Assembly (NCBI RefSeq): GCF_018127925.1
Contig: NZ_CP072348.1
Coordinates: 131,501-195,500 of the forward strand
Length of the DNA stretch: 64,000 nt
Direction: 5' to 3'
Source: Prevotella melaninogenica
GTDB lineage: Bacteria > Bacteroidota > Bacteroidia > Bacteroidales > Bacteroidaceae
The notes beneath the pieces were generated by a model. It made no database searches. It was not told where the DNA came from and worked only from the letters and a program-made list of their open reading frames with translations. Positions 15,087-49,611 of the stretch are shown here, in pieces. Position 1 is the first letter of the stretch; every line of letters begins with the position of its first letter. The translations under genes were made by a program, and so were the position numbers.

Positions 15087-16694
15087 ATGATGAAGAAAAC
15101 AATGAAACAATATTCATTCACATCGCAACTAAAGTCGTTGGCTGTCGTGTTCGGCATCGCCTTGACTTTCGCATCTTGTGCTAAGGAGGATGTGGCACAG
15201 AACCCAAGCAATAAAGAGGGCGATAACGATAAGAACCTTACAACTTTCGTTGCAGGCGATGAGGCAAAGACTCGCACCTCATTGGATTATAACAGCAGCG
15301 ACTTCTCTTGGGAGGCAGGCGATTATATCTACGTTAAGGATGACGACGGCGTAATGAGAAAGAGCACGAACGCTCCAACTCAGAAGGTAGCTTCTTTTAA
15401 GTATAAAGTACCAGGCAAGTTTACAGAACACACAAGTTATAAGGTTTATTACTTGGGGAAGAATAGTAATGGCAGCCAAGTAACTATCTCTGCTAACCAG
15501 ACGCAGACCGCTCCAGACAATACGGAGCACTTCGGCACAGTAGGCGACTATGGTACAGCTACGGCAATCAAGGTAATAGGCAAGCAACAGTTTGCTTTTG
15601 AATTAGAGCATCAGCCAGCTTACCTTGTCTTCCAGCCTTACACAAGTAACACAATTCTGCAAAACTGTTACTTAACTAAGGTGGAGGTAACTTCTGACAA
15701 CGATATTGCCGAAACATATAGCATCAATACAACAACAGGTGCTTTGGACGCTTCAGCAGGTACAGGCAGCAAACAAATCGTCTTGACTACAAGCGGCAGT
15801 AGTACTAATCCCAATGGTTTCCCACTAAGTAACAGTTCAGCCAGCGTAAGTACAAACGGTGCTTATATGGTAATCAAACCAGGAACTCATACGTTAAAAG
15901 TACGTTATTGGGTAAAAGACGAAGCTACCAACGTAGAGGGTACTATTACGAAGACGCTTCCTGCTACTGCTTATGCTTCTAACACTTACTACGATATGAC
16001 AGCTAACCTTAACGTACGCGATTACGACGGCGACCATTACTACATGTGGGATGCACAGGAGCAATATTGGAAGGATTACGAATGGACAAAGCACTTGTCA
16101 GGAAACACAGGTCAGCCAACACTAAATTGGAACAGTTCTTCAAATTACGCCCAGAGCAACGCTGACCCTCGTCACTTCAACGTGAGTTACCCAGGTTCTG
16201 GCATAAGTAACCCAGCAACACACACTTCATGTAAAGACCTTCCTAACGCAAACGAGATGTCTTGGTACTGCATGTACGGTGATCCACGTTGGGACGATGA
16301 CGAGTTATGGACAACGATGGGGCATTTATATAAAGGTGGTATGTGGTTTAAGAAGAAGGCTGTGTTGCAGGCAGAGAATCATTACAACACAGAGAAATCC
16401 GCCGATAATACAACCGACTTACGTACAACATACAAGGATTATAACAACACTAACAGTAGCATCACCTCTGGTCTTCCATCAGCAGCCGATGCAAATAAAT
16501 ATTTCTACCTGCCCGTCTTGGGTTACTACGACTCTGGTCAGCTGAACTTCGTTGGCGGCTTCGGCTCCTATTGGTCGTCAAGTGCTTACCCAAGGAGCAG
16601 TGGCAGCGCGTACCGCCTGCTCTTCTACAATGGTCACGTCTACGTGGAAGGCTACGGCCGCAGCACCGGTTTCAGGGCGGAGGCGTTTCAGTAG
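15087..16694 (+). CDS. fimbrillin-like lipoprotein with variable YWSSS C-terminal domain (cassette 1)
   Basis: 535-aa predicted surface lipoprotein. A signal peptide ends in LTFASC (lipobox). Next comes a fimbrillin/Mfa-like N-terminal domain with TRTSLDY, FSWEAGDYIYVKDD and YKVYYLGK, a second beta domain containing GTHTLKVRYWVKD, then YYMWDAQEQYWK, and a C-terminal domain of about 170 residues with NANEMSWYCMYGDPRWD, YFYLPVLGYY and YWSSSAYP. That last domain resembles the FISUMP/Lcl_C type, with a C-type-lectin-like fold common in DGR target proteins. Cassettes 2 and 3 encode close paralogues. Variation among them is concentrated in the last ~55 codons. The start could be Met2. Most likely an adhesin or pilus component. 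Confidence 0.82.
   Translation: MMKKTMKQYSFTSQLKSLAVVFGIALTFASCAKEDVAQNPSNKEGDNDKNLTTFVAGDEAKTRTSLDYNSSDFSWEAGDYIYVKDDDGVMRKSTNAPTQKVASFKYKVPGKFTEHTSYKVYYLGKNSNGSQVTISANQTQTAPDNTEHFGTVGDYGTATAIKVIGKQQFAFELEHQPAYLVFQPYTSNTILQNCYLTKVEVTSDNDIAETYSINTTTGALDASAGTGSKQIVLTTSGSSTNPNGFPLSNSSASVSTNGAYMVIKPGTHTLKVRYWVKDEATNVEGTITKTLPATAYASNTYYDMTANLNVRDYDGDHYYMWDAQEQYWKDYEWTKHLSGNTGQPTLNWNSSSNYAQSNADPRHFNVSYPGSGISNPATHTSCKDLPNANEMSWYCMYGDPRWDDDELWTTMGHLYKGGMWFKKKAVLQAENHYNTEKSADNTTDLRTTYKDYNNTNSSITSGLPSAADANKYFYLPVLGYYDSGQLNFVGGFGSYWSSSAYPRSSGSAYRLLFYNGHVYVEGYGRSTGFRAEAFQ
16530..16694 (+). other. DGR-type variable repeat candidate VR1
   Basis: From the residues after GYY to the stop. Compared with VR2 and VR3, constant codons are nearly identical at the DNA level (TATTGGTCGTCAAGTGCT is invariant). 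Variable codons are mostly of the form NNC with changes at bases 1 and 2 (for example AGC/ACC/TAC, GGC/AAC/TAC, CTC/TAC/GTC), as expected if template AAC codons were mutagenised at adenines. Confidence 0.6.
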
Positions 16695-16716
16695 TTCTCG
16701 CGATTGCCCCTTTACA

Positions 16717-16742
16717 GGTGTCGCCCTCTAAAAGGCGACACC
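16717..16742 (+). terminator. hairpin just downstream of VR1
   Basis: GGTGTCGCC (16717-16725) and GGCGACACC (16734-16742) make a perfect 9-bp stem with loop CTCTAAAA, 23 nt after the stop. It has no T-tract, so it is a weak terminator. The preceding TCGCGATTGCCC text and the left arm and loop recur after VR3, where the right arm is cut to GGC. It may instead be a DGR-type recognition hairpin. Confidence 0.5.
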
Positions 16743-16825
16743 TTAAGAACCGCCGTAAAACCCCACCCCGCCCAAAGGGGAGGGAGTGCCTAACGGACAG
16801 GGATTCTGCTGAATGCGTATTCCGT

Positions 16826-16995
16826 TGCAGCGCTCACCGTATCTACGCACTGACGGATGCGTATTTAGCTACTCGTAGATACGCATTGCGCAGCTGTTAG
16901 ATGCGTATCTAACAGCAGCGCTCACCGCATTCAACAGCAGCGCTCACCGCATCTAACGGCACGTAGATACGCATTGCGCAGCAAGGGAATACGCA
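16826..16995 (+). repeat. cassette 1 private palindrome array
   Basis: Three copies of GCAGCGCTCACCGyAT, two copies of GTAGATACGCATTGCGCAGC, and related forms such as TTAGATGCGTATCTAAC are mixed in direct and inverted order over 170 bp. The motif (ATGCGTAT/ATACGCAT) is found nowhere else in the window as an array. It lies between the fimbrillin-like gene and the HU gene, as the different arrays of cassettes 2 and 3 do. Confidence 0.75.
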
Positions 16996-17166
16996 TCTGG
17001 CAAGTAGAGGATACAGAAAGGAGGAAAGAAGAGACGATGAAAGGGAGGAAATAAACCAAGAAAATAGAATGGGGCAGCATGAAGATGCATGAAGAAAGCT
17101 GCAGTGGCGTGCTGCCCTACGCTATGATGATAAGAATCTAATGTATAACTTTAAACACGAAGAATT

Positions 17167-17622
17167 ATGAAAATTCGTTTAGTACCAAAGAAAAATCCGC
17201 AAAAGCGGGAGGAAGTAAAGTTTTATGCTAACCCTGTTAACCTTGGGCATAAGTCGCTGGATGACATTGCACGTGACATTGCGGGGCGTTCGTCCTTGAC
17301 ACGTGGTGATGTGTCGAACGTGCTGTATAACTTTATCGATTGTTTGCCTCATTATCTCCGTGATGGTTTCAGCATTCAGTTGGGCGAGTTTGGCTCGATG
17401 CGTGTCACACTGTCGAGCAAAGGAGCAGAAACAGAAAAAGCTTTTAAGACTGAGACGATTAAGCCTCGTGTGGTCTTCACGCCTGGAACAGAATTGAAAC
17501 GTGAGCTTTCCGTAAACTCCTACGAATCGGTGAGAAAGACAGAAGAGGCAGGGAAAGACAAGAAGAAAAAGGAAAAGGAAAAGAAAGAAGAGGAAAATGG
17601 CCCTGTACCAGACACCGTTTAA
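17167..17622 (+). CDS. HU-family DNA-binding protein (HU-HIG type), cassette 1
   Basis: 151-aa HU/IHF-fold protein. Core motifs: FYANPVNLGHKSLDDIARDIAGRSSLTRGDVSNVL (helical dimer part), YLRDGFSIQLGEFGSMRVTLSS (beta-arm entry), then the KPRVVFTPGTELKREL end of the fold. A C-terminal tail of alternating Lys and Glu (KDKKKKEKEKKEEENG) is unstructured. It is closely similar to the cassette 2 protein and more distant from the cassette 3 one. Placed ~470 nt after the lipoprotein gene, beyond the palindrome array, so it may be a separate transcript. Role is unproven: nucleoid-type or local regulator of the cassette. Confidence 0.85.
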   Translation: MKIRLVPKKNPQKREEVKFYANPVNLGHKSLDDIARDIAGRSSLTRGDVSNVLYNFIDCLPHYLRDGFSIQLGEFGSMRVTLSSKGAETEKAFKTETIKPRVVFTPGTELKRELSVNSYESVRKTEEAGKDKKKKEKEKKEEENGPVPDTV

Positions 17623-17784
17623 CCCTCATTGAATGCGAAAGCTTTTTGGGTTAACAGAACAGATTTGAAAACAAACTCGGTTTTGAAAGATTCTGAATTA
17701 ATTTTTATTCATGTTTTTAGAAATATGCCCTTGATGTGATATCAATAGCAATACTTTTTAATTTATTAATTTAATTTTCGTTTT

Positions 17785-17827
17785 CTTGCCCCTGTCACCA
17801 CTCTTGGTGTAATGGGGCAAGTTTTTT
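17785..17827. terminator. intrinsic terminator after cassette 1
   Basis: CTTGCCCC (17785-17792) pairs with GGGGCAAG (17814-17821), with an inner CACCA/TGGTG stem, followed by six T. It lies between the convergent HU and rsmD genes. Confidence 0.75.
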
Positions 17828-17872
17828 GTTCGTTGGTATCTTAATGCTTTTCTCAAATATATTTAATCTTTG

Positions 17873-18403
17873 TTATCTAAACAACGTGAAGTTCACGCTA
17901 CCATAACTTCTATGTTCAATGAAGTGGGGATGAGCGGAGAAATCATTATTCTTACCATGTTCAAAGACAAGTAGTCCATCTTCCTTCAATAGGTCATATT
18001 GGAAGATGAGGTCTGGAATAGTCTCTAACTCTGGCAATGCGTATGGAGGGTCAGCAAAGATTAGATCGAACTTCTGATGACAACTCTTTAAGAAGCGGAA
18101 CACATCTCCTTTTATCAATATATGCTCGTCTGTGCCAAGCTTCTCCATACATTGACTGATGAAGCGAGCATGGTCACGGTCTTTCTCTACACTTATTACC
18201 TGTTGGCAACCACGCGATAAGAGTTCTAAGGATATACTACCCGTACCAGCAAAGAGGTCGAGTGCCGTTGCTTCTTCCCAATCCACGTAAGCATTGATAA
18301 CATTAAAGATATTCTCTTTAGCAAAGTCTGTTGTAGGACGTGCCTTAAAGCTACGTGGAATATCAAAATGTCTGCCTTTATATTTTCCTGTTATAATTCG
18401 CAT
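17873..18403 (-). CDS. rsmD: 16S rRNA (guanine-966-N2)-methyltransferase
   Basis: 176-aa SAM-dependent enzyme that methylates G966 of 16S rRNA. It begins with the family hallmark MRIITGKYKGR and RPTTDFAKENIFNVI. The SAM-binding loop is LDLFAGTGSISLELLSRG and the catalytic DPPY motif is FADPPYALPE (about residues 116-125). Length is normal. It is downstream of the DUF3822 gene on the same strand with a 125-nt gap carrying one arm of the GGAGTTAAG repeat. DUF3822-rsmD pairing is common in Bacteroidota. Confidence 0.93.
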   Translation of the reverse strand: MRIITGKYKGRHFDIPRSFKARPTTDFAKENIFNVINAYVDWEEATALDLFAGTGSISLELLSRGCQQVISVEKDRDHARFISQCMEKLGTDEHILIKGDVFRFLKSCHQKFDLIFADPPYALPELETIPDLIFQYDLLKEDGLLVFEHGKNNDFSAHPHFIEHRSYGSVNFTLFR

Positions 18404-18417
18404 AGTTTCTATTTTTA

Positions 18418-18475
18418 GGAGATGAAGGAGATGAAGGAGTTAAGGAGTGAAATGGAGTTAAGACATTAGTCTCTA
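18418..18475 (+). repeat. GGAGTTAAGGAGTGAAA repeat, single arm
   Basis: Contains GGAGTTAAGGAGTGAAATGG then AGTTAAGACA. It matches one arm of the 57095-57219 inverted-repeat element; a weaker match lies near 45119-45150. Confidence 0.5.
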
Positions 18476-18528
18476 TGGGAGGTGTGTGAACTTAATTCAC
18501 TCTACATTTTAGTTCCAATCTTCTTCTT

Positions 18529-19341
18529 TTATTCCAGATAGATAGTTTTCATATCGTAGGGAATATCTGTACGTTTAGCCAATTGGCTATTATTGAAGTA
18601 AACTTCCTGATTGATAACCCTACAGGACTTCAAATGTTGTTTTACTTTATCAATGAGCCAGTCTTGGTAATGTATATCACCGACAATATATAACTCATCT
18701 TTCTCTACATCCATTCCTGTTAGCTTCCATATATAAAGAAGGTAATACAAAGCATCATGCTCATTGGTTGCTTCGTATGAATTACTGAAGCGGAATCTGT
18801 TTTGTTGGAAACTGAAAACCTCCATACGCTTCTCGTGGAAATAAGCATAAAGTTTTCTACGTGGACCAGCGTAAGAACGACGATAGAGATGCGTCCATAC
18901 CGACTGCATAAGCGGTTGTATTCGAATGTCCTTGAAATGGTCGTCGATAACGAGCTTGAGGTCTTTGTTAATTGCAAAGACAGCAATCGCATTCAAGTCT
19001 GGTAGGATACTCGATAGAATCTCCTCGTTGCCTTGTCTATGGTAAGTGTGATGATAGAGTGTCTCAATATCCTGTGTGCCAAAGTCGTCAATAGGCATGA
19101 GCATCACAGGGGTATCAATCTCTGCTAACAAACGTTTGTATCCACTCTGCAACAATTCAGAAACCTTGAAGGCTTCACGCAGATTGGCAGCAACAGAGAT
19201 ACCCATATTCATCTCGTAGGGTTCATAAACGAGCATACCATTCTCCTGTGGGTCACCCACAGCAAATGCCATATTGTTCCTGCTAAATCTGATAGTAAGT
19301 CGCAGTTTTTTATCGGAGATATTATTGTCTGTTTCTGTCAT
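18529..19341 (-). CDS. DUF3822 family protein
   Basis: 270-aa cytoplasmic protein from the MTETDNN start, recognised as the Bacteroidota DUF3822 family by LRLTIRFSRNNMAFAV, the NMGISVAANLREAF segment and the C-terminal YIVGDIHYQDWL region. The fold is thought to be actin/ASKHA-like; the function is not known. Start at 19341 is chosen because a -7 box (19372-19379) lies 30 nt upstream and inside the longer frame. It leads a two-gene unit with rsmD. Confidence 0.8.
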   Translation of the reverse strand: MTETDNNISDKKLRLTIRFSRNNMAFAVGDPQENGMLVYEPYEMNMGISVAANLREAFKVSELLQSGYKRLLAEIDTPVMLMPIDDFGTQDIETLYHHTYHRQGNEEILSSILPDLNAIAVFAINKDLKLVIDDHFKDIRIQPLMQSVWTHLYRRSYAGPRRKLYAYFHEKRMEVFSFQQNRFRFSNSYEATNEHDALYYLLYIWKLTGMDVEKDELYIVGDIHYQDWLIDKVKQHLKSCRVINQEVYFNNSQLAKRTDIPYDMKTIYLE

Positions 19342-19371
19342 TACGAACGTTGTATAGCTTTTTATCACTTG

Positions 19372-19379
19372 CAAACTTA
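19372..19379 (-). promoter_or_regulatory. -7 promoter box for DUF3822-rsmD
   Basis: Minus strand TAAGTTTG matches TAnnTTTG and fixes the start at 19341. Confidence 0.55.
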
Positions 19380-19487
19380 CGCATTTTTTTCCGATTTCAT
19401 TGGTTATCTGCTTGATAAATATCATCGAATGGTATTCTTTAAAGTATTAAAAAAGGGAAAATTAGCGTTTGATACTTAAAAAAGATA

Positions 19488-19495
19488 TAACTTTG
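19488..19495 (+). promoter_or_regulatory. -7 promoter box for lrgAB
   Basis: TAACTTTG, followed by C, about 73 nt before lrgA. Confidence 0.5.
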
Positions 19496-19568
19496 CACTC
19501 GCTTATTAAATGCTATAACTATTCAAACAATCATGTTTGATGGTGGTGTTGAATAATAACTTTTTTAC

Positions 19569-20072
19569 ATGGCAAGACAGTTCTTTGTTATCTTCGGATG
19601 CTTAGCATTGGGAGAGTTTATTGTTTGGGCTACAGGAATAAAACTGCCGTCCAGTATCATTGGTATGCTTCTTCTTACACTTTTTCTAAAGTTAGGATGG
19701 GTGAAGTTAGCTTGGGTGGAGCGATTGTCACAGCTTCTGATAGCAAATCTCGGCTTCTTCTTTGTACCGCCTGGGGTGGCTCTTATTCTCTATCTTGATC
19801 TTATTAAGGCTCAATGGTTCCCTATTGTTACTGCAACAGTAGTCAGTACTCTTCTTGTTCTTGTTGTTACAGGACAGATGCATCAACTTGTCATAAAGTT
19901 TGAACGTCGGTTGATGGCTATGGACTTACTTCATCATCGTGCCCATGCGCAGAAGATGAAGAAGATGCTGGAGGAAACCGAAGAGGTTGAAGCCATGGAA
20001 GAAGCTGAAAGGATAGAACTTGACAAAGCTTTACTCGGACAGGATAAGATAACTAAAACGGAGGAAAAATAA
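19569..20072 (+). CDS. lrgA: CidA/LrgA family holin-like protein
   Basis: 167-aa inner-membrane protein with about four membrane helices (FFVIFGCLALGEFIVWATGI; IIGMLLLTLFLKLGWV; LLIANLGFFFVPPGVALILY; WFPIVTATVVSTLLVLVVTG). FVPPGV is the family signature. A charged cytoplasmic tail of about 60 residues, rich in Met, Lys and Glu, is longer than in Gram-positive LrgA. The family has been linked to control of murein hydrolase release and to pyruvate or small-metabolite transport; which applies here is unknown. Its stop overlaps the lrgB start by 1 nt. Confidence 0.85.
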   Translation: MARQFFVIFGCLALGEFIVWATGIKLPSSIIGMLLLTLFLKLGWVKLAWVERLSQLLIANLGFFFVPPGVALILYLDLIKAQWFPIVTATVVSTLLVLVVTGQMHQLVIKFERRLMAMDLLHHRAHAQKMKKMLEETEEVEAMEEAERIELDKALLGQDKITKTEEK

Positions 20073-20821: not shown

Positions 20822-20904
20822 GGCGTCTTTGTGTAATAGCGTGATAAAGTCTACTATGGTAAGAAGGAATTTATACCCATTATTACACGTGTAGTTTTAA
20901 TTTC

Positions 20905-20993
20905 ATTTTGCTGTCACATTTAACATTTCATGTAATCCTACTGTTACTTAGCAAGTTAACTAATGAATTAGGGTGACAGTAGTGACAGCAAAA
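20905..20993 (-). repeat. GCTGTCA-ended MITE-like repeat, copy 2
   Basis: Inverted relative to the copy at 824. Ends GCTGTCACATTTAACATTTC and GTGACAGTAGTGACAGC. The remaining gap to 21350 is AT-rich with no gene that I can see. Confidence 0.65.
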
Positions 20994-21427
20994 TCTCAAC
21001 TTTTATCTCTGTAACATCAAGTGTGTGAGTATTTACTTATTGTTTAGGATCTTATAATAATTCTCTATTTGTTAAATGACTATTCAGTTATAAGGCGTGT
21101 AATCAATTGTTGATTATCAATAAGTTACATGTATAAAGTCTGCAAATTCTAATGAAGAATGTTATTTCGATCCTTTCTATTACAATATCACGTTTATAAG
21201 TTCTTGATATTCAACGCTCATTATTTTTGAACACTTTATTAAAGATGTTTGTTAAATAGATTTAAGAACTTCCTGAGAATTTTCTATAATAAGAATAAAA
21301 TAATAGCTTTGCAAAAGCAGATAGTCACATATTAATGTGCCTAATGTTATATCATGAATAAGAACAGTTTAATTTTAAAAATCTATTATGAAAGCAAACA
21401 ACTTGGACATTATACATCTTATCCTAT

Positions 21428-36344: not shown

Positions 36345-36488
<144 letters not shown>

Positions 36489-36543
36489 TCATACTTTTTT
36501 TCTTCCATCCTACGCGCGCGCGAAGCGTGGTGTAACGCTTGTA

Positions 36544-36582
36544 AACAAAGGACTTCATGGAGTTTCCTTTGTTCGCTTTTTT
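36544..36582 (+). terminator. cassette 2 leader hairpin (putative attenuator)
   Basis: AACAAAGGA (36544-36552) and TCCTTTGTT (36565-36573), then CGC and six T (36577-36582). Stem arms are identical to cassettes 1 and 3; only the loop differs. Confidence 0.65.
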
Positions 36583-36856: not shown

Positions 36857-37063
36857 ATGAGAAAGAAACAAGAAAAGAAGGATTATTCTGCCCCATGTTG
36901 CATGATAATCCAAGTAAGCGAAACCACTTATTTGATGGATACGTCTTACCCCGGTCAGCACAACCCAGCCCAGTCAGGCGGCACCTCTGGTGATGCCAAG
37001 CAGGCTCCAAGTTGGATGACAGAAAGCGAAGAAACGACGGAGCATTCTTCATGGGAAGATTAA
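36857..37063 (+). CDS. cassette 2 small conserved protein, 68 aa
   Basis: Paralogue of the proteins at 14843 and 51064. MRKKQEKKDYSAP, then MIIQVSETTYLMDTSYPGQHNP, then the Gln/Ser/Gly linker (AQSGGTSGDAKQ) and an acidic tail ending SSWED. The linker is almost identical to the cassette 3 protein, the YLMDTS core is closer to cassette 1. No export signal. It is 54 nt before the lipoprotein gene. Confidence 0.7.
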   Translation: MRKKQEKKDYSAPCCMIIQVSETTYLMDTSYPGQHNPAQSGGTSGDAKQAPSWMTESEETTEHSSWED

Positions 37064-37117: not shown

Positions 37118-38659
37118 ATGAAAAAGAAATTATTCAAGACCCGCCTGTTATCATTCGCAGCTTTCTGCGGGCTCACATTCGCGTTTGCATCCTGTGCTAA
37201 TGAAGACGTAGCGCAGAAGCCAAACAACACTGATAATGATAAGAATCTGACAACCTTCACAGCGGGTGACCCTTCAACGCGCACCTCAATGGAGAGCGAT
37301 GGCAAGTTCTTTTGGGAAGCAGGCGACAGGATTTGGGTAAAGGACGATGATGGTACATGGCAACAAAGCAGCAACGCTCCAACAGCAAAGGCCGCCAGCT
37401 TTAAGTTTAAAGTGCCTGGTAAGTTTACACAAAGCACCAGCTATAAGGTTTATTACCCAGGTCAGAGTGGTAATCAGGATCAAGTAACCATCGCTGCTAG
37501 CCAGAGCCAGGCAGCGCCAAATACAACTGCTCACTTTGGCACATCAGGCGATTGCGGAATGGCTGATGCATCAAAGCAGTCAAACGGCTCGTTTGCTTTT
37601 ACTCTTGACCACAAAGCTGCTTACTTGCTTCTTTTGCCACGTACCAGCAACACTATTTTGCATGATTGTTACTTAACTAAGGTAGAGGTAAACTCTGATA
37701 ATGATATTACCGATATTTACACCCTCGATCCAGTGACAGGCAAACTCACAGGCACAGGTACAGGCAAGCAGATTGTTCTCACTACAAAGGGTAGCGGAAC
37801 ATACGTTAACGGTTTCCCTTTAACTAACAACTCCACAAGCGCTGCTACCAACGGTTCTTACGTTGTTATAAAGCCAGGTACCCATACACTCAAGATACGT
37901 TATTGGGTGAAGGACGTTGCAACAAACGTAGAGGGAACTATAACTAAGACATTAGCATCAGCAACCTACGACCAGAACAAGTATTATAACATCACTGCTA
38001 ACCTTAACGTAAAGGACTACGACGGAACAAAGTACTACATGTGGGATGCTCAGCAGAATTATTGGGCAGGTCATGAATGGAATAGCGCAAATCCATGGCA
38101 GCCAGTGTTGAACAGTAACAGTAACAGCAACTACCCCCAGAGCAACACTGACTCTCGTTGGTACAACGAGGGCGGTGTTTCAGGTCGCTTCGATGCTACT
38201 GAGAGTTGTGCTGCTCTTCCCAACGCTAACGAGATGTCTTGGTACGTAATGTACGGCGATCCTCGTTGGGATACAGATGAATTATGGACAACTATGGGTC
38301 ATTTATATAAAGGTGGTATGTGGTTTAAGAAGAAGTCCGTTCTACTGGCAGAGGGTAATTACGACACCGAGACATCTGCCGACGGTACAACCGACATGCG
38401 TACAACATACAAGGCCTACACCAACAGCAGCAGTAGTATCCTCCCTTCCGCCGCCGATGCAGGTAATTACTTCTACCTGCCCGCCTCGGGTAAGTACTTC
38501 TATGGTGTTCTGGGCTACTTTGGCACCGGCTACTATTGGTCGTCAAGTGCTGAGCCATGGACCAGCAACAACGCGTACCTCCTGTACTTCAGCGGTAGTA
38601 GCGTCAACGTGGACAACTACGGCCGCAACAACGGGTTAAGGGTCGGCGGGTTCGAGTAG
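37118..38659 (+). CDS. fimbrillin-like lipoprotein with variable YWSSS C-terminal domain (cassette 2)
   Basis: 513-aa paralogue of the 15087 and 51030 proteins. Lipobox TFAFASC near residue 26, then TRTSMESDGKFFWEAGDRIWVKDDDG and the same order of beta domains. The conserved C-terminal block NANEMSWYVMYGDPRWDTDELWTTMGHLYKGGMWFKKK leads to YFYLPASGKY and YWSSSAEPW. It is one codon shorter than the others just before YWSSS. The last ~55 codons differ from cassette 3 at 17 codons after YWSSSA without any synonymous change. Probably surface-exposed adhesin; fimbrial assembly is inferred from the N-terminal similarity only. Confidence 0.82.
   Translation: MKKKLFKTRLLSFAAFCGLTFAFASCANEDVAQKPNNTDNDKNLTTFTAGDPSTRTSMESDGKFFWEAGDRIWVKDDDGTWQQSSNAPTAKAASFKFKVPGKFTQSTSYKVYYPGQSGNQDQVTIAASQSQAAPNTTAHFGTSGDCGMADASKQSNGSFAFTLDHKAAYLLLLPRTSNTILHDCYLTKVEVNSDNDITDIYTLDPVTGKLTGTGTGKQIVLTTKGSGTYVNGFPLTNNSTSAATNGSYVVIKPGTHTLKIRYWVKDVATNVEGTITKTLASATYDQNKYYNITANLNVKDYDGTKYYMWDAQQNYWAGHEWNSANPWQPVLNSNSNSNYPQSNTDSRWYNEGGVSGRFDATESCAALPNANEMSWYVMYGDPRWDTDELWTTMGHLYKGGMWFKKKSVLLAEGNYDTETSADGTTDMRTTYKAYTNSSSSILPSAADAGNYFYLPASGKYFYGVLGYFGTGYYWSSSAEPWTSNNAYLLYFSGSSVNVDNYGRNNGLRVGGFE
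38492..38659 (+). other. DGR-type variable repeat candidate VR2
   Basis: Aligned with VR3 from TATTGGTCGTCAAGTGCT to the stop: 17 codons differ, all altering the amino acid, and 12 of these keep the third base, most often C. Remaining codons, including GCGTAC, TACGGCCGC and GGGTTCGAGTAG, are identical. Confidence 0.62.
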
Positions 38660-38844: not shown

Positions 38845-38868
38845 CTCTGACCTACTATAGATTTTAAG

Positions 38869-39043: not shown

Positions 39044-39478
39044 ATGAAAATCAAATTGATTGAAAGAAGAAAGCCAGGTACAAAGACTGGACCAGGTAAG
39101 TTTTATGCAAGTCCTGTGAACGTGGGGAAGAAGAACCTGCGGGATATTGCGCACGACATTGCGGGGCGTTCTTCGCTTACACGTGGTGATATCGAAAACG
39201 TGCTGGCGAATTTTATGGACTGTCTGCCTCATTATCTCCGCGATGGCTTTAGCGTGCAGTTAGGAGAGTTTGGCACGATGCGCCTGACACTTTCAAGCGA
39301 GGGAGCTGCAACGGAAAAGGCTTTTAAGACCGAGAAGATTAAGCCGCGTGTAACGTTTACGCCGGGTGTGGAACTGAAAGCTGCGCTGCGCGAGAACTCG
39401 TATGAGACAGTGAAAGAGGAAAAATCGGGCTCTAAGGAAAAAGGGGGCGGAAAGAGTCCCGGCCCTTCGCCAGAGTAG
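39044..39478 (+). CDS. HU-family DNA-binding protein (HU-HIG type), cassette 2
   Basis: 144-aa paralogue of the cassette 1 HU protein. Nearly identical core: FYASPVNVGKKNLRDIAHDIAGRSSLTRGDIENVLANFMDCLPHYLRDGF ... LGEFGTMRLTLSS ... KPRVTFTPGVELK. The C-terminal tail is glycine- and serine-rich (GSKEKGGGKSPGPSPE), not Lys/Glu-rich. A terminator separates it from the lipoprotein gene, so it should have its own promoter in 38910-39043; none matches the consensus well. It is followed directly by a MITE whose internal hairpin would end transcription. Confidence 0.85.
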   Translation: MKIKLIERRKPGTKTGPGKFYASPVNVGKKNLRDIAHDIAGRSSLTRGDIENVLANFMDCLPHYLRDGFSVQLGEFGTMRLTLSSEGAATEKAFKTEKIKPRVTFTPGVELKAALRENSYETVKEEKSGSKEKGGGKSPGPSPE

Positions 39479-39523: not shown

Positions 39524-39691
39524 GGGTTGTCAAAATGCAAATTAATAAGTTGACAACTTTTAAACTGTAAGTAGTTTTTCCCTAAAAGCAAAGAAAAGAC
39601 CATTTCTTTACTCACAAACGAGTACAGAAATGGTCTTTTTTAATGAATTGTTTTAAACTTTAAGCTTATCAAAATGTTATTTGCATTTTCC
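39524..39691 (-). repeat. 176-bp-type MITE with internal terminator, copy A
   Basis: Inverted relative to the copies at 48374 and 51661. Ends GGGTTGTCAAAATGCAAA and TTTGCATTTTCC; the internal ACCATTTCT ... AGAAATGGT hairpin (about 39598-39638) has T-runs on both sides. Confidence 0.75.
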
Positions 39692-39739
39692 TTCTCTTTT
39701 GTTATTCTTTTCTTACATTGTTACTTTGTTTTCTATCTT

Positions 39740-42034: not shown

Positions 42035-42074
42035 TGTGCATCCTCCCTTTATATAATAAGGTAAAAGAATCTTG

Positions 42075-43211: not shown

Positions 43212-43251
43212 TATTTCTTAGTTAGTTAGCGCAAATACAGTGCGCTACTGC

Positions 43252-44034: not shown

Positions 44035-44201
44035 TACCCTTTGTCTTGCTTAAGTTACTGGTTTGAAGGTTTTTTACTTATCCTTTGCTTTGTAGTCAGC
44101 CACTTGTTGAGGCTTCCTAATGCTTGAGAATCGTCTTTCTAAACCAGAATACTTGCTTATCTTATACTTACTAATACCTTAATCTTTCCGTATGGGAAGT
44201 A

Positions 44202-45107
44202 TTACTTCATCTTATCCATCACTTCCATGATGTGAAGTAATTCCTCTTCTGATGCAAACGGAATACTAATCTTACCCTTTCCATCAGCGTTACAACTCAT
44301 CTGTACCTTCGTATCGAAGAATGATGAGAGTCGCTGCTTGAGGATATTAAACTCCTCTGGAAGGCGAGTGCGAGCAGAAATCTTCTTCTTTGCACTCTGG
44401 ATATCTTCTCCGTTATTGAGTTGCTGACACAGTTCTTCAACCTTGCGAACACTATATCCGTTCTTTAAAATCTCACGATAGAGTTTCAATTGCAGTGAAG
44501 GACTATCCAAAGAAAGCAATGCACGAGCATGTCCCATGTCTATTTCTTTCTTTTGCAGACCCATCTGTACCAATGCAGGAAGCTTCAATAAACGAAGGTA
44601 GTTAGCAATAGCAGCACGGCTCTTACCCACACGCTCTGCTACACGCTCCTGTGTCATTCCGCTCTTTTCAAGCAGATGTTCGTAAGCCAAAGCAATCTCA
44701 ATCGCATTCAAGTCCTCACGCTGGATGTTCTCAACCAGCGCCAACTCCATTACATTCTCGTCCTTAATCGTACGGATATAGGCTGGAACAGCTTTCAAGC
44801 CTGCCAACTGACTGGCACGCCAACGGCGCTCACCAGCAATAATTTGGAAGCGATTCTCATCTATCTGGCGCAGTGTAATCGGCTGAACGAGTCCTAACTC
44901 ACGAATACTATTCGCCAACTCTTCCAACGCAACAGGGTCGAATTCTCGACGAGGTTGGTTTGGATTCGCTTCAATCTGTTCTAAGGCAACCTCGTTGATA
45001 GTAGAACTTCCTTGTGTACTGACAGCTTCAGTAGATATTAAGGCATCCAGACCACGGCCGAGGGCATTGGTCTTTGCGTTTCGATTATATTTCTTTTGTA
45101 CAGCCAT
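44202..45107 (-). CDS. parB: chromosome partitioning protein ParB
   Basis: 301-aa from the MAVQKKYN start. Contains ALGRGLDALI at the N-terminus (ParA-interacting), the ParB/Spo0J CTPase core (INEVALEQIEANPNQPRREFDPVALEELANSIRELGLVQPITLRQ; GERRWRASQLAGL), the helix-turn-helix region (GMTQERVAERVGKSRAAIANYLRLLKLP) and a C-terminal dimerisation end. The start at 45107 matches the family; the extra 27 codons upstream are GGAGTTAAG-repeat DNA. No parS site was searched for exhaustively. Confidence 0.93.
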   Translation of the reverse strand: MAVQKKYNRNAKTNALGRGLDALISTEAVSTQGSSTINEVALEQIEANPNQPRREFDPVALEELANSIRELGLVQPITLRQIDENRFQIIAGERRWRASQLAGLKAVPAYIRTIKDENVMELALVENIQREDLNAIEIALAYEHLLEKSGMTQERVAERVGKSRAAIANYLRLLKLPALVQMGLQKKEIDMGHARALLSLDSPSLQLKLYREILKNGYSVRKVEELCQQLNNGEDIQSAKKKISARTRLPEEFNILKQRLSSFFDTKVQMSCNADGKGKISIPFASEEELLHIMEVMDKMK

Positions 45108-45316
45108 AGTCTTTGTTTGGGAGTTAATGGAGTTAAGGAGTTTGGTGGAGTTAGCGGTTGTTTTGCCCGATGCTACGATGCTTTTCATTTCCAGTTCTTT
45201 GTCTCTTTATTATCTACAGCTAATCAATCTGTGATAGAAACATTAGTTTTACGACCTGAAAACGATACATCTGTGTGTCTCAAAGCATACCTTTACACTC
45301 CGTATCTTTCCCTTCT

Positions 45317-46084
45317 TTATTTCTTATTCTTTTCAATGATTTCCTTTGCAAGGCTAAGATGATTCTTTGCACCTGTAGAGTCAGCATCATAGAGGATAAC
45401 TGGTAAACCATGACTCGGACTCTCAGAGAGTTTCACGTTACGCTGGATAACAGCCTTGAAAACTAACTCTTGGAAGTGGCGCTTCACCTCATCGTAAATC
45501 TGACGGGCAAGACGCAGACGACTGTCGTACATCGTCAGCAGGAAGCCCTCTATCTCCAACTTTGGATTTAGCTTACTCTTGATAATCTTAATGGTGTTCA
45601 ACAACTTGCTGATACCTTCCAATGCAAAGTATTCACACTGCACAGGAATGATAACAGAGTCTGCTGCTGTCAATGCATTGACAGTAATCAAACCGAGTGA
45701 CGGACTACAGTCTATCAGGATGTAATCGTAATCGTCACGGATTGGAGTAAGTAAACTGCTCATAACCTTCTCACGACCATTAAGCTTCAACATCTCAATT
45801 TCAGCTCCAACAAGGTCGATATGGCTTGGAACAATGTCCAATCCTTCTATGTCAGTTGTGTAGATAGCGTCTTTTATGTCGGCATGGTCAATGATACATT
45901 CGTAAAGCGAACAATCCACCTCTTTGATATCCACGCCCAAACCGCTGGAGGCATTCGCCTGCGGATCGGCATCAATCACCAGTACAGACTTCTCAAGCGT
46001 TGCTAAAGAAGCCGCCAAGTTAATGGTGGTAGTCGTCTTTCCGACGCCGCCTTTTTGGTTGGCAAGTGCGATAATCTTTCCCAT
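45317..46084 (-). CDS. parA: chromosome partitioning ATPase ParA/Soj
   Basis: 255-aa MinD/ParA ATPase. Deviant Walker A KGGVGKTTTTINLAA (about residues 10-24), Walker B-like DYILIDCSPSLG, and the VPVQCEYFALEGI-type switch region (IIPVQCEYFALEGISKLL). Works with ParB to segregate the chromosome origin. The 210-nt gap to parB is unremarkable. A -7 box (46118-46125, minus strand TATCTTTG) lies 34 nt upstream and is back to back with the surE promoter. Confidence 0.95.
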   Translation of the reverse strand: MGKIIALANQKGGVGKTTTTINLAASLATLEKSVLVIDADPQANASSGLGVDIKEVDCSLYECIIDHADIKDAIYTTDIEGLDIVPSHIDLVGAEIEMLKLNGREKVMSSLLTPIRDDYDYILIDCSPSLGLITVNALTAADSVIIPVQCEYFALEGISKLLNTIKIIKSKLNPKLEIEGFLLTMYDSRLRLARQIYDEVKRHFQELVFKAVIQRNVKLSESPSHGLPVILYDADSTGAKNHLSLAKEIIEKNKK

Positions 46085-46117
46085 TTTTCTATTTAATCCT
46101 ATACATTTATTAGGCTA

Positions 46118-46125
46118 CAAAGATA
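46118..46125 (-). promoter_or_regulatory. -7 promoter box for the parA operon
   Basis: Minus strand TATCTTTG, 34 nt before parA. Divergent from the surE -7 box (TACTTTTG, 46169-46176). Confidence 0.55.
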
Positions 46126-46168
46126 CATATTTTATATGAGATTGCAGGGCTTTATAAACCTTTTTTCG

Positions 46169-46176
46169 TACTTTTG
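46169..46176 (+). promoter_or_regulatory. -7 promoter box for surE-lpxB
   Basis: TACTTTTG then C, 22 nt before the surE ATG at 46199; this supports the downstream start. Confidence 0.5.
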
Positions 46177-46198
46177 CACAGAAATCAAAGTGAAATTT

Positions 46199-46972
46199 AT
46201 GAATTCTAAGAAACCACTCATACTTATATCTAACGATGATGGATACCACTCTAATGGTATTCGTACGCTCGTTTCATTTCTTTCTGATTTTGCAGAAATT
46301 GTTGTCTGTGCCCCTGAAGCAGGACGTTCGGGTTTCTCATGTGCTTTTTCGGTGGTTGACTATCTGCTGTTGAAGAAACGGAATAATATCCCTAACTGTG
46401 AAGTTTGGTCATGTTCGGGTACGCCTGTAGACTGTGTGAAACTGGCGTTAGACCGTATTCTTGTTGACCGAAAGCCTGACCTTATCTTGGGAGGTATCAA
46501 TCATGGAGATAATTCATCAGTCAATAATCATTACAGCGGGACGATGGGTATTGCCTATGAGGGGTGTATGAAATATATCCCTTCTATTGCCTTTTCAAGT
46601 TGTGATTACGACCCTAATGCCGACCTATCTTACCTACGTGATTACGTAAGACTTATTGTCAAGAAAGTTCTTGCTGATGGTCTGTCAAAAGGTGTCTGCC
46701 TAAATGTGAACTTCCCTAAGGTTGAGAAGTTTGCAGGGCTGAAAGTTTGCCGTATGGGGTGGGGGAGTTGGACAAGAGAGGTTGAGGCTTGTAAGCATCC
46801 TCGTGGCTTCGATTACTATTGGATGACAGGGCATTATCGTAACGATGAGCCTGATGCAACCGATAATGATCAGTGGGCATTGGCGCATGGATATGTAACT
46901 GTTACGCCATCGAAGATTGACGTGACGGATTATGAAGTGCTCGATAAGATGAAATCGTGGGAATCTCTTTAA
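46199..46972 (+). CDS. surE: 5'/3'-nucleotidase SurE
   Basis: 257-aa phosphatase that hydrolyses nucleoside monophosphates. Starts MNSKKPLILISNDDGYHSNGI, which carries the metal-binding DD pair; further marks are VVCAPEAGRSGFSCAFS, CSGTPVDCVKLALD and LGGINHGDNSSVNNHYSGTMGIAYEG. The frame extends 21 codons upstream, but the promoter box at 46169 lies inside that extension. 12 nt before lpxB, so an operon. Confidence 0.93.
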   Translation: MNSKKPLILISNDDGYHSNGIRTLVSFLSDFAEIVVCAPEAGRSGFSCAFSVVDYLLLKKRNNIPNCEVWSCSGTPVDCVKLALDRILVDRKPDLILGGINHGDNSSVNNHYSGTMGIAYEGCMKYIPSIAFSSCDYDPNADLSYLRDYVRLIVKKVLADGLSKGVCLNVNFPKVEKFAGLKVCRMGWGSWTREVEACKHPRGFDYYWMTGHYRNDEPDATDNDQWALAHGYVTVTPSKIDVTDYEVLDKMKSWESL

Positions 46973-46984
46973 TTCTTTGATATT

Positions 46985-48184
46985 ATGAAGTATTACCTGA
47001 TAGTTGGTGAAGCATCTGGCGACTTACATGCCTCACGCCTTATGCAGTCGTTGATGCAGTATGATCCAGAGGCTGAGTTTCGCTTCTTTGGTGGTGACCT
47101 GATGGCGAAAGTGGGGGGTACACGTGTGAAGCATTATCGTGAACTTGCCTATATGGGGTTCGTTCCTGTATTGCTGCATCTGCCCACTATCTTCAAGAAT
47201 ATGAAGATGTGCAAGGAAGACATCATGCGGTGGAAGCCTGATGCGGTCATCCTTGTCGACTATCCAGGGTTTAATCTTAGTATTGCAAAGTTTGTAAAGA
47301 AGAATACCAATATTCCTGTCTATTACTATATCTCCCCAAAGATATGGGCATGGAAGGAGTGGCGTATCAAAGCTATCAAGCGTGATGTAAAAGAAATGTT
47401 CTCTATTCTTCCGTTTGAAGTTCCTTTCTATGAGAAGAAACATAATTACAAAATACATTACGTTGGTAATCCGACTGCCGAGGAGGTTGATAATTTCCGT
47501 CATGTCTATTCGGAGTCGAAATATGAGTTCTGTCAGCGTAATGGCTTGTCTTCTAAGCCAATTATAGCTCTTCTTGCTGGTAGTCGTAAGCAGGAGATAA
47601 AGGATAATTTGCCTTCAATGTTGGAGGCTGCACGTCATTTTGAGGATTATCAGATGGTGGTTGCAGCAGCACCATCTATCACTGAAAGTTACTATAGAAA
47701 GTTTTTAAATGACAGCGAGGCAAAGATGGTGAAGACACAAACTTATGAACTTCTGAGTCATGCTACAGTAGCACTCGTTACCAGTGGTACAGCAACGCTT
47801 GAGACAGCTTTGCTGAATGTTCCACAGGTTGTCTGCTACGAAACGCCAGTTCCAAAGTTGATTCGCTTTTCTTTTAAACATATTATTAAGGTGCGTTTTA
47901 TCTCGCTTGTCAATCTTATTGCCGACAAGGAGATTGTGCAAGAACTTCTTGCTGATCGTTTCTCAATTCGCAATATTGCCAACGAGTTGTATCGGATCCT
48001 TCCTGGTCAACCTTCGCGTGAACGTATGTTAGCTGATTATCAACTTGTTCGTGAACGATTAGGTAACGAGGTAGCACCTGATAATGCGGCAAGAATTATG
48101 GTCGAAAAGCTAACAGGTAGACAGGTTTATGAGTTGTCAAGTGAACCTGAAAACGAGTATGTTAGTGAGCAAACTTATGAATAA
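46985..48184 (+). CDS. lpxB: lipid-A-disaccharide synthase
   Basis: 399-aa GT19 glycosyltransferase that condenses UDP-2,3-diacylglucosamine and lipid X in lipid A synthesis. Family marks: YYLIVGEASGDLHASRLM at the N-terminus, FFGGDLMAKVGG, LVDYPGFNLSIAKF, YYISPKIWAWKEWRIKAIKR, FILPFE-like FSILPFEVPFY, YVGNPTAEE, IALLAGSRKQEI and TSGTATLETALLNVPQVVCY. Full length. The combination surE-lpxB is common in Bacteroidota. An AT-rich palindrome array follows the stop. Confidence 0.95.
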   Translation: MKYYLIVGEASGDLHASRLMQSLMQYDPEAEFRFFGGDLMAKVGGTRVKHYRELAYMGFVPVLLHLPTIFKNMKMCKEDIMRWKPDAVILVDYPGFNLSIAKFVKKNTNIPVYYYISPKIWAWKEWRIKAIKRDVKEMFSILPFEVPFYEKKHNYKIHYVGNPTAEEVDNFRHVYSESKYEFCQRNGLSSKPIIALLAGSRKQEIKDNLPSMLEAARHFEDYQMVVAAAPSITESYYRKFLNDSEAKMVKTQTYELLSHATVALVTSGTATLETALLNVPQVVCYETPVPKLIRFSFKHIIKVRFISLVNLIADKEIVQELLADRFSIRNIANELYRILPGQPSRERMLADYQLVRERLGNEVAPDNAARIMVEKLTGRQVYELSSEPENEYVSEQTYE

Positions 48185-48261
48185 ATAGATTGCTCGAAAC
48201 CATGTGTTATTTATTAAGTAATACATTACTTTTAGTAAAACAAGTCTATCTGTCTCGAATT

Positions 48262-48349
48262 CTTTTCACGAATAAAAATATTTCTTTTCATGAAGAAAAA
48301 TATTTATTATCGTGTAAATAATTATTTCTTTTCATGAAAATAATTTGTT
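48262..48349. repeat. AT-rich iterated palindrome array (TTTTCATGAAAATAATT type), copy 2
   Basis: Same family as 6876-6966: TTTTCACGAATAAAAATATT, TTTCTTTTCATGAAG, ATTATCGTGTAAATAATT and TTTTCATGAAAATAATT follow one another. Confidence 0.6.
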
Positions 48350-48373
48350 ATGAATAGATAAATAAGAAAGAGA

Positions 48374-48549
48374 GGATGTATCAAAATGCAAATACCATTT
48401 TGATAATCTTATAGTTTGAAACAATTCATTAAAAATGACCATTTCTGTACTCGTTTGTGAGTAAAGAAATGGTCTTTTCTTTGCCTTTAAAAGAATCCTA
48501 CTTATAGATAGAAAGTGTCAAGTTATTAATTCGCATTTTAACACACCCT
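48374..48549 (+). repeat. 176-bp-type MITE with internal terminator, copy B
   Basis: Left end GATGTATCAAAATGCAAA, right end CGCATTTTAACACACCC. The internal GACCATTTCT ... AGAAATGGTC hairpin (about 48437-48476) ends in a T-run. Same orientation as the copy at 51661; the two flank cassette 3. Confidence 0.8.
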
Positions 48550-48638
48550 CTACTTGCATATAGCTCCTGCTACCAGCTTCCCTCTCTTTCATCACCAACT
48601 AAACCATTTAGTTTCCATCCTCCTCTAGCAAACTGTGC

Positions 48639-48682
48639 ATTTCACTCCCCTCCCTATGGGGGAGGGGCCGGGGGAGGGGCCA
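48639..48682 (+). repeat. GC-rich palindromic repeat, copy 5
   Basis: TTTCACTCCCCTCCC, TAT, GGGGGAGGGG, CC, GGGGGAGGGG, CCAG. Same family as the etf-region repeats, at the 3' end of the cassette 3 HU gene. Confidence 0.7.
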
Positions 48683-48702
48683 GTTGTTGTTGCTGTTGTT
48701 TT

Positions 48703-49173
48703 TTACCCTGCCACTGGTCCACCCTCTTGTTTATTCTCCTTTTCTTTCGGCTCGGGGGCGGGGGTGAGGCTTTTTTTCTCCTTCCACTCTTCCCAATAAA
48801 TATTATCCGAAACCAGCGAACGAGTGGCAACTTTGTTACTCTGCGTGCGCGAAGTCTCGGGAATGAAGCGTACACGAATGCCCTTTATCTGCTTTGCCGT
48901 GACTTCTTCTGGTTTTGCGATACCTTTATCGGCGTTAATGGTGTAGTAAAACGTGCCCACGCCCTCCAACTTCACCGTGCGACCCTCCGCCATGAAGGAT
49001 GCCATCACACCACCTAAGTCCTTCAGTACAGCATACGTGTCACCACGACTCACGGTTGAAATCAATGCCAATCGGTCAGCCACTTGATCTGTTGTTACGG
49101 GCTTCCCCACGGTTATTGCTTCTGGATACCATAGCCCTGTTAGCTTCTTCTTTACTTTCTTAAAAAATGCCAT
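48703..49173 (-). CDS. HU-family DNA-binding protein, cassette 3
   Basis: 156-aa HU/IHF-fold protein, but of a different branch from those of cassettes 1 and 2. It starts FFKKVKKKLTGLWYPEAITVG, then VTTDQVADRLALISTVSRGDTYAVLKDLGGVMASFMAEGRTVKLEGVGTFYYTINA and KGIRVRFIPET, followed by a charged Pro/Glu tail ending EGGPVAG. This resembles the common Bacteroidota HU proteins of ~120-160 aa. It occupies the same slot: downstream of the lipoprotein and a palindrome array, same strand. So position is conserved while the subfamily is not. Confidence 0.82.
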   Translation of the reverse strand: MAFFKKVKKKLTGLWYPEAITVGKPVTTDQVADRLALISTVSRGDTYAVLKDLGGVMASFMAEGRTVKLEGVGTFYYTINADKGIAKPEEVTAKQIKGIRVRFIPETSRTQSNKVATRSLVSDNIYWEEWKEKKSLTPAPEPKEKENKQEGGPVAG

Positions 49174-49249
49174 AATATTAATGTTTTAAAGTTGATAAAT
49201 ATGATTTGTAAATTGTTTTCTTATTCGAGTCACCCTCGGTATGGGACTG

Positions 49250-49324
49250 AGGGTACCTAAGTATCATACTTAGGGTACCTGAGTATCATACTTAGACCCC
49301 CTAAGTATCATACTTTGGTACCCT
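49250..49324 (-). repeat. cassette 3 private palindrome array
   Basis: Three iterations of GGGTACCTAAGTATCATACT or close variants (CTAAGTATCATACTTAG is the palindromic core), between the lipoprotein and HU genes. No other copies in the window. Confidence 0.75.
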
Positions 49325-49405
49325 ATTTATAAGCCCTTGATTATCAATCACTTACAAAGGGTCTATTTTCACCCCTTTTTGTCATGTTTTTTCGCATTAA
49401 TTCAT

Positions 49406-49446
49406 GCCTTTTAGAGGGCGACACCTATAAAGGGCAATCGCGAGGA
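49406..49446 (-). other. VR3 downstream element (conserved with VR1)
   Basis: After the stop, TCGCGATTGCCC, TTTATAGGTGTCGCCCTCTA and AAAGGC match the cassette 1 flank nearly base for base, but the right hairpin arm is cut after GGC. Absent after VR2. Confidence 0.6.
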
Positions 49447-49611
49447 CTACTCGAACCCGTCGACCCTGTACCCGTACCAGCGGCCGTAGAAGTTCATGTT
49501 GACTTCGTTACTGTTGAAGACCAGGCCGTACGCGCTGTAGCTGTACCATGGGCTAGCACTTGACGACCAATAGTAGCCTTGGTCGCCAACATTGTCCAGC
49601 TGATTAGAGTG
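49447..49611 (-). other. DGR-type variable repeat candidate VR3
   Basis: Compared with VR1, constant positions are shared (GGTTACTAC, CAGCTG, GTTGGC, TATTGGTCGTCAAGTGCT) and variable codons differ mainly at bases 1 and 2 (GAC/CAC, GGT/AAT, AAC/GAC, GGC/GAC, TCC/TAC). Confidence 0.62.

Follow-up and report, generated by a model that had tools for sequence, protein, structure and literature searches.

Lipoprotein cassettes with variable C-termini

We analyzed a 64,000-nucleotide stretch of the Prevotella melaninogenica genome (contig NZ_CP072348.1, positions 131,501 to 195,500; hereafter the window), in which three cassettes each encode a lipoprotein with a hypervariable C-terminus whose variation points to a diversity-generating retroelement (DGR). 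Each cassette associates a dinucleotide microsatellite, a small peptide gene, the lipoprotein gene, and an HU-HIG DNA-binding protein gene (table 1). The 18-mer TATTGGTCGTCAAGTGCT, searched with up to three mismatches permitted, has three exact copies in the window, one per lipoprotein gene (16569, +; 38534, +; 49555–49572, −), against 0.04 occurrences expected in a shuffled window. Past the YWSSSA residues, 35 codons can be compared between cassettes 2 and 3; 17 of them are changed, all nonsynonymously, and 12 of these retain the third base. We thus reproduced a count first made from the letters and open reading frames (ORFs) of the window (the sequence-only reading). Cassette 1 is unlike cassette 2 at 24 of the 35 codons (3 synonymous, 16 with the third base retained) and unlike cassette 3 at 24 as well (3 and 15, respectively). 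The tract after YWSSS, in which the sequence-only reading had placed the variation, is indeed variable, but this start lies too far downstream: the variable repeats (VRs) begin at the codons for FYLP (16503, 38471, and 49638), and 7 of the 22 variable codons precede YWSSS.

The complete genome (3.36 Mb, two contigs, 99.96% complete) encodes 37 intact genes with an FYLP...YWSS-type tail, found on both contigs by searching for the motif and reading the frames. In these 37 genes, chosen by their tail motif, the variable tract extends from FYLP to near the stop codon and therefore forms the 3′ end of the gene. All 37 VRs differ from one another. The VR of cassette 2 used as a DNA query gave 38 matches on both contigs, all within genes of the family (40 of 43 first-look candidates scored). 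Similarly, the motif TAYTGGTCGTC has 32 sites in the genome, 30 in family genes and two in unrelated genes, and a protein search added at least two more divergent homologues (25 of 52 candidates scored). By title and abstract, literature searches, with bioRxiv preprints outside their coverage, returned no paper on this Prevotella family.

A DGR-like signature in the variable repeats

Among the 37 copies, 22 VR codons are strongly variable (entropy above 2.5 bits) and use all four letters at their first and second bases. They are mostly of the form NNC (N, any base): C occupies the third position in 634 of 812 cases, vs about 330 expected from the codon usage of the same genes for the same residues. 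We defined a fresh class of copies by NNC at the variable columns and then measured homogenization on the conserved columns. In the 16 fresh copies, the synonymous difference is 0.114 at the conserved VR columns vs 0.41 over the whole body of the gene; just upstream of the VR it is 0.32 over the last 75 columns and 0.44 over the last 13, and the lowest value among 67 body windows is 0.27. None of 500 random 16-copy sets was as homogeneous. The eight intermediate copies show a synonymous difference of 0.18 in the VR vs 0.44 outside, and the 13 eroded copies 0.47 in both. Pairs of fresh copies differ at positions 1, 2, and 3 of the variable codons in 0.67, 0.59, and 0.08 of comparisons, the last value being partly circular, as are all third-base figures of variable codons in the comparison of fresh with eroded copies. 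Over the 37 copies, retention of NNC correlates with retention of the scaffold codons (rho 0.81).

The drop of divergence in the fresh set starts sharply at the FYLP codons, which correspond to the 5′ edge of the homology between template repeat (TR) and VR in a complete DGR of the genus, described below. In all, 88 genes passed length and motif filters, which excluded fragments, notably those of the Prevotella enoeca genome (G232). For bodies from 35% to 85% identical, identity at the variable sites stays at about chance (0.125; bin means 0.10–0.15). Above 85% body identity it is 0.11 in five within-genome pairs and 0.19 in nine between-species pairs. Shuffling of VRs among paralogues was rejected: the longest common run is 4, vs a mean of 4.17 after shuffling.

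A uniform scaffold carrying 22 in-register, near-random codons is the expected product of a reverse transcriptase (RT) that mutates adenines while copying a single template rich in AAC; selection or ordinary gene conversion would not produce both features. The proposal of the sequence-only reading that these C-termini are DGR-type VRs is borne out by four features taken together: NNC codons where a TR has AAC, a sharp 5′ edge, near saturation at codon positions 1 and 2, and a scaffold homogenized in the fresh copies. On this pattern, we consider a DGR origin of the VR variation very probable, close to certain.

DGR targets have a GC-rich hairpin with a 7–10-bp stem and a 4-nt GRNA loop shortly 3′ of the VR, according to a published description (PMC3240598). 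We found a GC-rich hairpin (stem of at least 7 bp, loop of 3–8 nt) within 80 nt past the stop codon in 15 of the 37 copies, vs 54 of 4,000 random windows and 12 of 1,850 shuffles. The same type follows 7 of the 40 window ORFs of at least 150 aa (amino acids), the cassettes counted in, and a GRNA loop (GAAA) is present in only two of the 15 hairpin-bearing copies. The hairpin resembles the target hairpin of BPP-1, but the background past other stop codons is too high to rely on this likeness.

Complete DGRs in the genus

Three complete DGRs were identified, in P. vespertina (G003, locus L140), in P. jejuni (G323, L302), and in a further genome (G005, L139). They share the order target, accessory gene, Avd-like gene, TR, RT. 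In G005 all parts lie on one strand, and the target is a lipoprotein of the family described here. Its Avd-like gene matches NF033474 (E 1.3e-10) and bAvd (E 1.3e-9), in both cases under the curated cut-offs; the P. vespertina counterpart clears the bAvd cut-off. The top Protein Data Bank (PDB) match of the G005 RT is 8ub7, the RT of the BPP-1 DGR.

When the G005 TR is aligned with the 37 VRs, 19 of its 20 Asn codons fall on variable columns, whereas only 3 of the 40 other columns vary (Fisher 1.4e-11). Between this TR and its own VR, 22 of 52 adenine sites differ and none of 116 other sites; in P. jejuni, TR and own VR mismatch at 1 of 135 non-adenine sites. The TRs of P. vespertina and P. 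jejuni, the former reading like the latter, serve a different target type (YYWSAVP).

The accessory gene, of 164–190 aa, occupies the same slot of the DGR in L139 (5845–6417), L140 (7434–7931), and L299 (3611–4105), all on the minus strand; the two copies scanned gave no Pfam match. Downstream of the P. vespertina RT lies a putative HU-like gene, recognized by eye (L140, 4394–4906, −).

Search for a reverse transcriptase and a template

In the P. melaninogenica genome, RVT_1 has three matches, which correspond to a retron-type RT and an adjacent Drt3a/Drt3b defense pair. No DGR-clade RT was found in this genome with a profile built on the G005 and P. vespertina RTs, whose best match (E = 0.0028) is on the Drt3a gene. 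The G005 TR used as a query of the same genome gave seven matches, all in family genes and none a TR. Likewise, no TR appeared among 36 loci of this genome scored for AAC codons: the richest stretch has 10 per 50, vs 17–19 in three real TR loci. On the RVT_1 and DGR-RT profile results, a DGR in this genome was rejected at the sensitivity of these searches. The sequence-only reading had assumed a remote one, which is not supported, given the retron-type and Drt3a/Drt3b nature of the RTs and the failure to find a TR; its reservation about a DGR close by was justified. It had also called for a whole-genome search for a TR. As this search found none, an action in trans from this genome at present is not sustained, and a DGR origin of the VRs still stands.

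The search was extended to nine family-bearing genomes with the DGR-RT profile. Three were positive, namely P. vespertina, G005, and P. jejuni. No DGR RT was seen in the other six: P. melaninogenica itself, P. veroralis (G026), G070, G146, G170, and P. enoeca, the last giving only a partial profile match over 48 positions (E = 3.9e-4). Searching P. jejuni, P. veroralis, G146, G170, and P. enoeca with a VR returned 20 matches, of which 17 fall within open frames 515 codons long or longer and the remaining three within broken frames of P. enoeca, a draft genome. None of the 20 is an Asn-rich TR, with at most 8 AAC codons per 50 vs 17–19 in the three DGR loci. One of the cross-genome searches scored the two best candidates per genome. 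The three P. enoeca VRs in broken frames (L211, L306, and L309) reflect either decay or draft-assembly error.

Phage, plasmid, and viral collections contained no match to a VR or TR, and a phage or plasmid source within the collections searched was accordingly rejected. Two viral contigs (L300 and L301) carry DGR-type RTs with Asn-rich TR-like stretches of other types.

Variable repeats in other species

Cassette 1 has a syntenic ortholog in P. jejuni, 91.7% identical in DNA over 3.9 kb and 81.7% over 3.1 kb further upstream. In the body, the two genes are separated by 35 nonsynonymous and 51 synonymous codon changes; the VR counts are 21 and 2, respectively, with 15, 11, and 4 differences at codon positions 1, 2, and 3. 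This contrast implies that the VR was still being randomized around the time of the divergence from P. jejuni or later.

From other genomes we retained 45 of 52 tails, the other seven missing the motif or having too few aligned columns. Of these 45 VRs, 12 pass as fresh VRs with the same scaffold, distributed across six other species of the Prevotella group; no matching TR was found in these six species. Between-species comparisons used 11 of the 12 (L305 omitted), picked by NNC and scaffold match both of at least 0.8, a choice that favors low scaffold divergence: the scaffolds diverge by 0.07–0.14 between species vs 0.11 within P. melaninogenica. In the same set, the bodies differ by 0.37–0.45 and their last 75 columns before the VR by 0.24–0.36. 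By NNC alone, L282 of P. vespertina (scaffold 0.79) and the G005 copy (0.48) would also qualify. Genomes G010, G012, G016, G017, G027, and G029, which have protein-level relatives, lie outside this comparison. Similar scaffolds on diverged bodies across species fit a shared, moving source, be it a mobile DGR or an exchange of VR segments.

Origin of the variable repeats

We propose the following mechanism. An AAC-rich TR would be copied by an error-prone RT that randomizes adenines, and the complementary DNA would replace the last ~190 bp of each target. The targets are at least 37 cassettes over both contigs, usually consisting of the small peptide gene, the lipoprotein gene, and the HU-HIG gene. 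The DGR core would be lost or mobile, and the VRs would be leftover targets in differing stages of decay. As RT and TR were not found at the sensitivity of our searches, most VRs are probably leftovers, and the same-scaffold VRs for which no TR was found in six other species suggest that the core has probably been lost repeatedly or moves between hosts. We assign a probability of roughly 0.68 to a lost or mobile DGR core that acted in this lineage. A more specific version is tentative and, in our estimate, has somewhat less than an even chance: a mobile DGR would visit, re-randomize many standing, phase-variable, pilus-like adhesin cassettes from one shared template, and then be lost. If true, the writer DGR and the written cassettes evolve as separate genetic entities, and hosts retain recipient sites only.

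Several observations weigh against the proposal of a lost or mobile core. No TR matching this scaffold turned up in any of the searches, which covered P. vespertina in part. The two candidate templates that were tried fail: the G005 TR mismatches the fresh VRs at 0.27 of non-adenine sites and the P. jejuni TR at 0.38. Within the VRs, about 22% of the third bases of variable codons are not C, and 13 of the 37 copies are without any homogenization. Some VRs have gained or lost whole codons, which adenine mutagenesis leaves unaccounted for, and several codons containing A (TAC, columns 9 and 51) are nearly invariant. Sharing between pairs of VRs is a little less even than after shuffling (variance reached in 3 of 100 shuffles, maximum in 8 of 100). 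The C-type-lectin fold of the C-terminal domain is at most putative, the AlphaFold model of this domain being unusable (mean predicted local distance difference test score, pLDDT, 39). Finally, re-randomization of the cassette 1 VR dates to about the divergence from P. jejuni or later, and a cognate TR was found in neither genome, so that a mere ancient loss would be too simple.

Alternatively, a DGR of other strains or species might have diversified the VRs, which then entered this genome by homologous recombination or gene transfer, so that no DGR action in this lineage would be needed. The similar scaffold DNA in seven species with far more diverged bodies, the failure to find RT or TR in this genome, and the homogenized tract with its sharp 5′ edge all agree with import. 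However, imported tracts should sometimes cross the FYLP edge, whereas divergence in the fresh set falls exactly at the edge homologous to a TR, and the 37 VRs are all distinct with no common runs beyond chance (longest 4, shuffled mean 4.17). We therefore regard import as unlikely. The cognate DGR could also reside in the living strain and have escaped detection, either because its plasmid or prophage was not assembled or because its RT diverges too far from the RVT_1 and DGR profiles, and the randomization near or after the P. jejuni split does suggest recent activity. This is improbable given two contigs with 99.96% completeness, the lack of a candidate with RVT_1 or the DGR-RT profile, VR and TR DNA searches that give family genes only among the candidates scored, and plasmid, phage, and viral collections without a match.

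Explanations that dispense with a DGR fare worse. Strong diversifying selection on surface loops, combined with recombination among paralogues, would suit surface lipoproteins with a nonsynonymous excess whose old copies stay variable without NNC. Selection, however, would not homogenize synonymous sites of the scaffold to about one-quarter of the body divergence, nor maintain C in 78% of third positions for amino acids that do not prefer it, and it gives no reason for variable sites to fall on the AAC codons of another species' TR; gene conversion would homogenize the variable sites as well. We consider this explanation very improbable. Mutagenesis by a resident retron-type or Drt3a/Drt3b RT, the sole RTs found in the genome, can practically be dismissed, as these match retron and Drt3 families closely, no TR was found, and P. 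veroralis, whose genome is without any RVT_1 match, carries a fresh-type VR.

Relation to known systems

In Treponema denticola, eight isolates without RT or TR keep 2–6 target genes, likely leftovers of lost DGRs according to the authors (Nimkulrat et al. 2016, PMC4891356). The same report describes dispersed targets and adenine-type VR variation, as here, and its authors propose gains and losses of the core. Its figures and families differ: at most seven regular targets per genome vs 37 here, in another protein family, and a TR known from sister isolates vs none found for the present scaffold. The cassettes described here have microsatellites linked to putative promoters, of which the available text for T. 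denticola makes no mention (PMC4891356).

DGRs diversify the tip pilins of Bacteroides type V pili, according to a review (PMC12632263, citing bioRxiv 10.1101/2024.11.15.621889). These are likewise Bacteroidales surface lipoproteins of the pilin kind with a DGR-diversified part; they differ from the present family in that here we have a large dispersed array, found no DGR core, and have at most candidate tip pilins. Remote VRs are known in cyanobacteria (PMC7517822) and in Thiohalocapsa PB-PSB1 (PMC10907252). These systems share with our family targets distant from the core, 3′-terminal VRs, and dispersed paralogues, but those genomes retain RT and TR, neither of which was found here. In the G005 DGR, the target is of the same lipoprotein family and the TR matches the variable sites codon for codon; at 27% and 38% non-adenine mismatch, the G005 and P. 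jejuni TRs are not the template of the window VRs.

DGR leftovers are therefore of a kind already known. At the depth of our search, three points are new: orphan targets are so numerous, a similar scaffold recurs in seven species for which no template was found, and each copy in this genome is accompanied by a microsatellite and an HU-HIG gene. The family thus seems to combine two sources of diversity, with microsatellites as 37 candidate on/off switches and a tail showing hypervariation of the retroelement type. The 37 natural VRs of one genome, from fresh to decayed, form an unusually large set for studying how DGR diversity ages without its source. The similar scaffold in seven species raises the question of whether targets outlast DGRs that are gained and lost, or whether bacteria trade ready-made variable domains.

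Predicted fold of the lipoprotein

The AlphaFold model of the cassette 2 lipoprotein has a mean pLDDT of 57, with a useful part at about residues 63–300. Foldseek matched this body to 4h40, 3t2l, 3ufi, and 4k4k at E ~1e-7 and a probability of 1.00, then to Mfa2 (5nfi, E 1.9e-4) and FimA (4q98, E 5.8e-3), with weaker matches to Gram-positive pilins; the TM-scores by target are about 0.3–0.5 and the root-mean-square deviations mostly 7–10. On this model, the body resembles a subunit of type V pili (a fimbrillin) that ends in the variable domain. The C-type-lectin fold that the sequence-only reading assigned to the variable domain is plausible but putative. The G005 homologue has a sub-threshold Lcl_C match only, and a PDB sequence search with the C-terminal domain alignment gave no match. 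Pfam, NCBIfam, and PHROGs returned weak sub-threshold matches or none for the lipoprotein.

Leader, microsatellites, and neighboring genes

A dinucleotide repeat, (AC)7–38 or (CT)9–27, lies within 1.1 kb upstream of all 37 copies. The window has only three dinucleotide repeats of at least six units, one per cassette. Downstream of the repeat, a near-invariant, attenuator-like hairpin followed by a T-run is present in all 37 copies (up to four errors permitted). In the window cassettes it sits between the microsatellite and the small peptide gene. An Rfam scan of the window, this hairpin included, gave no match. In the 8 of 38 leaders covered beyond the main repeat, a palindrome TTTGG..CCAAA and a TAATTTTG-like box precede it. 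The other leaders were covered up to a nearer (CG)5; cassette 3 also has the palindrome and box. This box resembles the −7 element of Bacteroidetes promoters. The dinucleotide repeat beside a promoter-like box, where visible, suggests that expression of the cassettes is probably phase variable. The repeat length differs between cassette 1, with (CT)15, and its P. jejuni ortholog, with (CT)12.

Each of the 37 copies is followed, on its own strand and at no more than 1.8 kb, by an HU-HIG-type frame (Pfam PF18291 for the window genes), and in 27 a small peptide gene with an acidic tail end lies upstream, as judged by a strict pattern. The conserved hairpin also precedes homologues in P. jejuni (4/4), P. 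enoeca (14/16), P. vespertina (7/10), G146 (4/8), P. veroralis (3/5), G170 (1/3), G070 (1/3), and G005 (0/1, with 273 nt of upstream DNA), and a dinucleotide repeat is present in most, not all, of the upstream stretches of other-species homologues. Seven P. enoeca contigs (C47, C53, C60, C64, C79, C83, and C87) start about 290–400 nt upstream of a family match, as if the assembly broke at the repeated leader.

Table 1. Features of the three window cassettes, and RT genes located elsewhere in the genome
Feature	Position	Strand
Cassette 1 palindrome TTTGGTAGTTCCAAA leading into TAATTTTG, a promoter-like −7 box	14606..14623	+
Cassette 1 (CT)15 microsatellite	14631..14660	+
Cassette 1 conserved hairpin then T-run, terminator/attenuator-like	14735..14774	+
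Cassette 1 small upstream peptide gene (MEKKKQKKNYSAP..SWED)	14843..15046	+
Cassette 1 lipoprotein, 535 aa	15087..16694	+
Cassette 1 VR, NNC 0.95, fresh	16503..16694	+
Cassette 1 inverted repeat, 10-bp stem, 8-nt loop, directly past the stop codon	16716..16743	+
Cassette 1 HU-HIG DNA-binding protein gene	17167..17622	+
Cassette 2 (AC)16 microsatellite	36438..36469	+
Cassette 2 conserved hairpin then T-run	36543..36582	+
Cassette 2 small upstream peptide gene	36857..37063	+
Cassette 2 lipoprotein, 513 aa; N-terminal half models as Bacteroidales fimbrillin-like	37118..38659	+
Cassette 2 VR, NNC 0.90, fresh	38471..38659	+
Cassette 2 GC-rich 8-bp stem, 4-nt loop (CCCTCCCC-AAAA-GGGGAGGG), 16 nt past the stop codon	38676..38695	+
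Cassette 2 HU-HIG gene	39044..39478	+
Cassette 3 promoter-like palindrome TTTGGTCAATCCAAATAA	51475..51492	−
Cassette 3 (AC)7 microsatellite	51454..51467	−
Cassette 3 conserved hairpin then T-run	51340..51379	−
Cassette 3 small upstream peptide gene (start codon picked by resemblance to cassettes 1 and 2)	51064..51270	−
Cassette 3 lipoprotein, 527 aa	49447..51030	−
Cassette 3 VR, NNC 0.82, intermediate	49447..49638	−
Cassette 3 HU-HIG gene	48703..49173	−
RTs of the genome (retron-type, Drt3a/Drt3b)	L001 970..2295 (−); L002 1246..2436; L003 997..2916	

Near cassettes 2 and 3, a repeat of about 162 nt occurs three times (39528–39689, 48355–48516, and 51642–51803), the copies being 87–88% identical and the first inverted relative to the other two.

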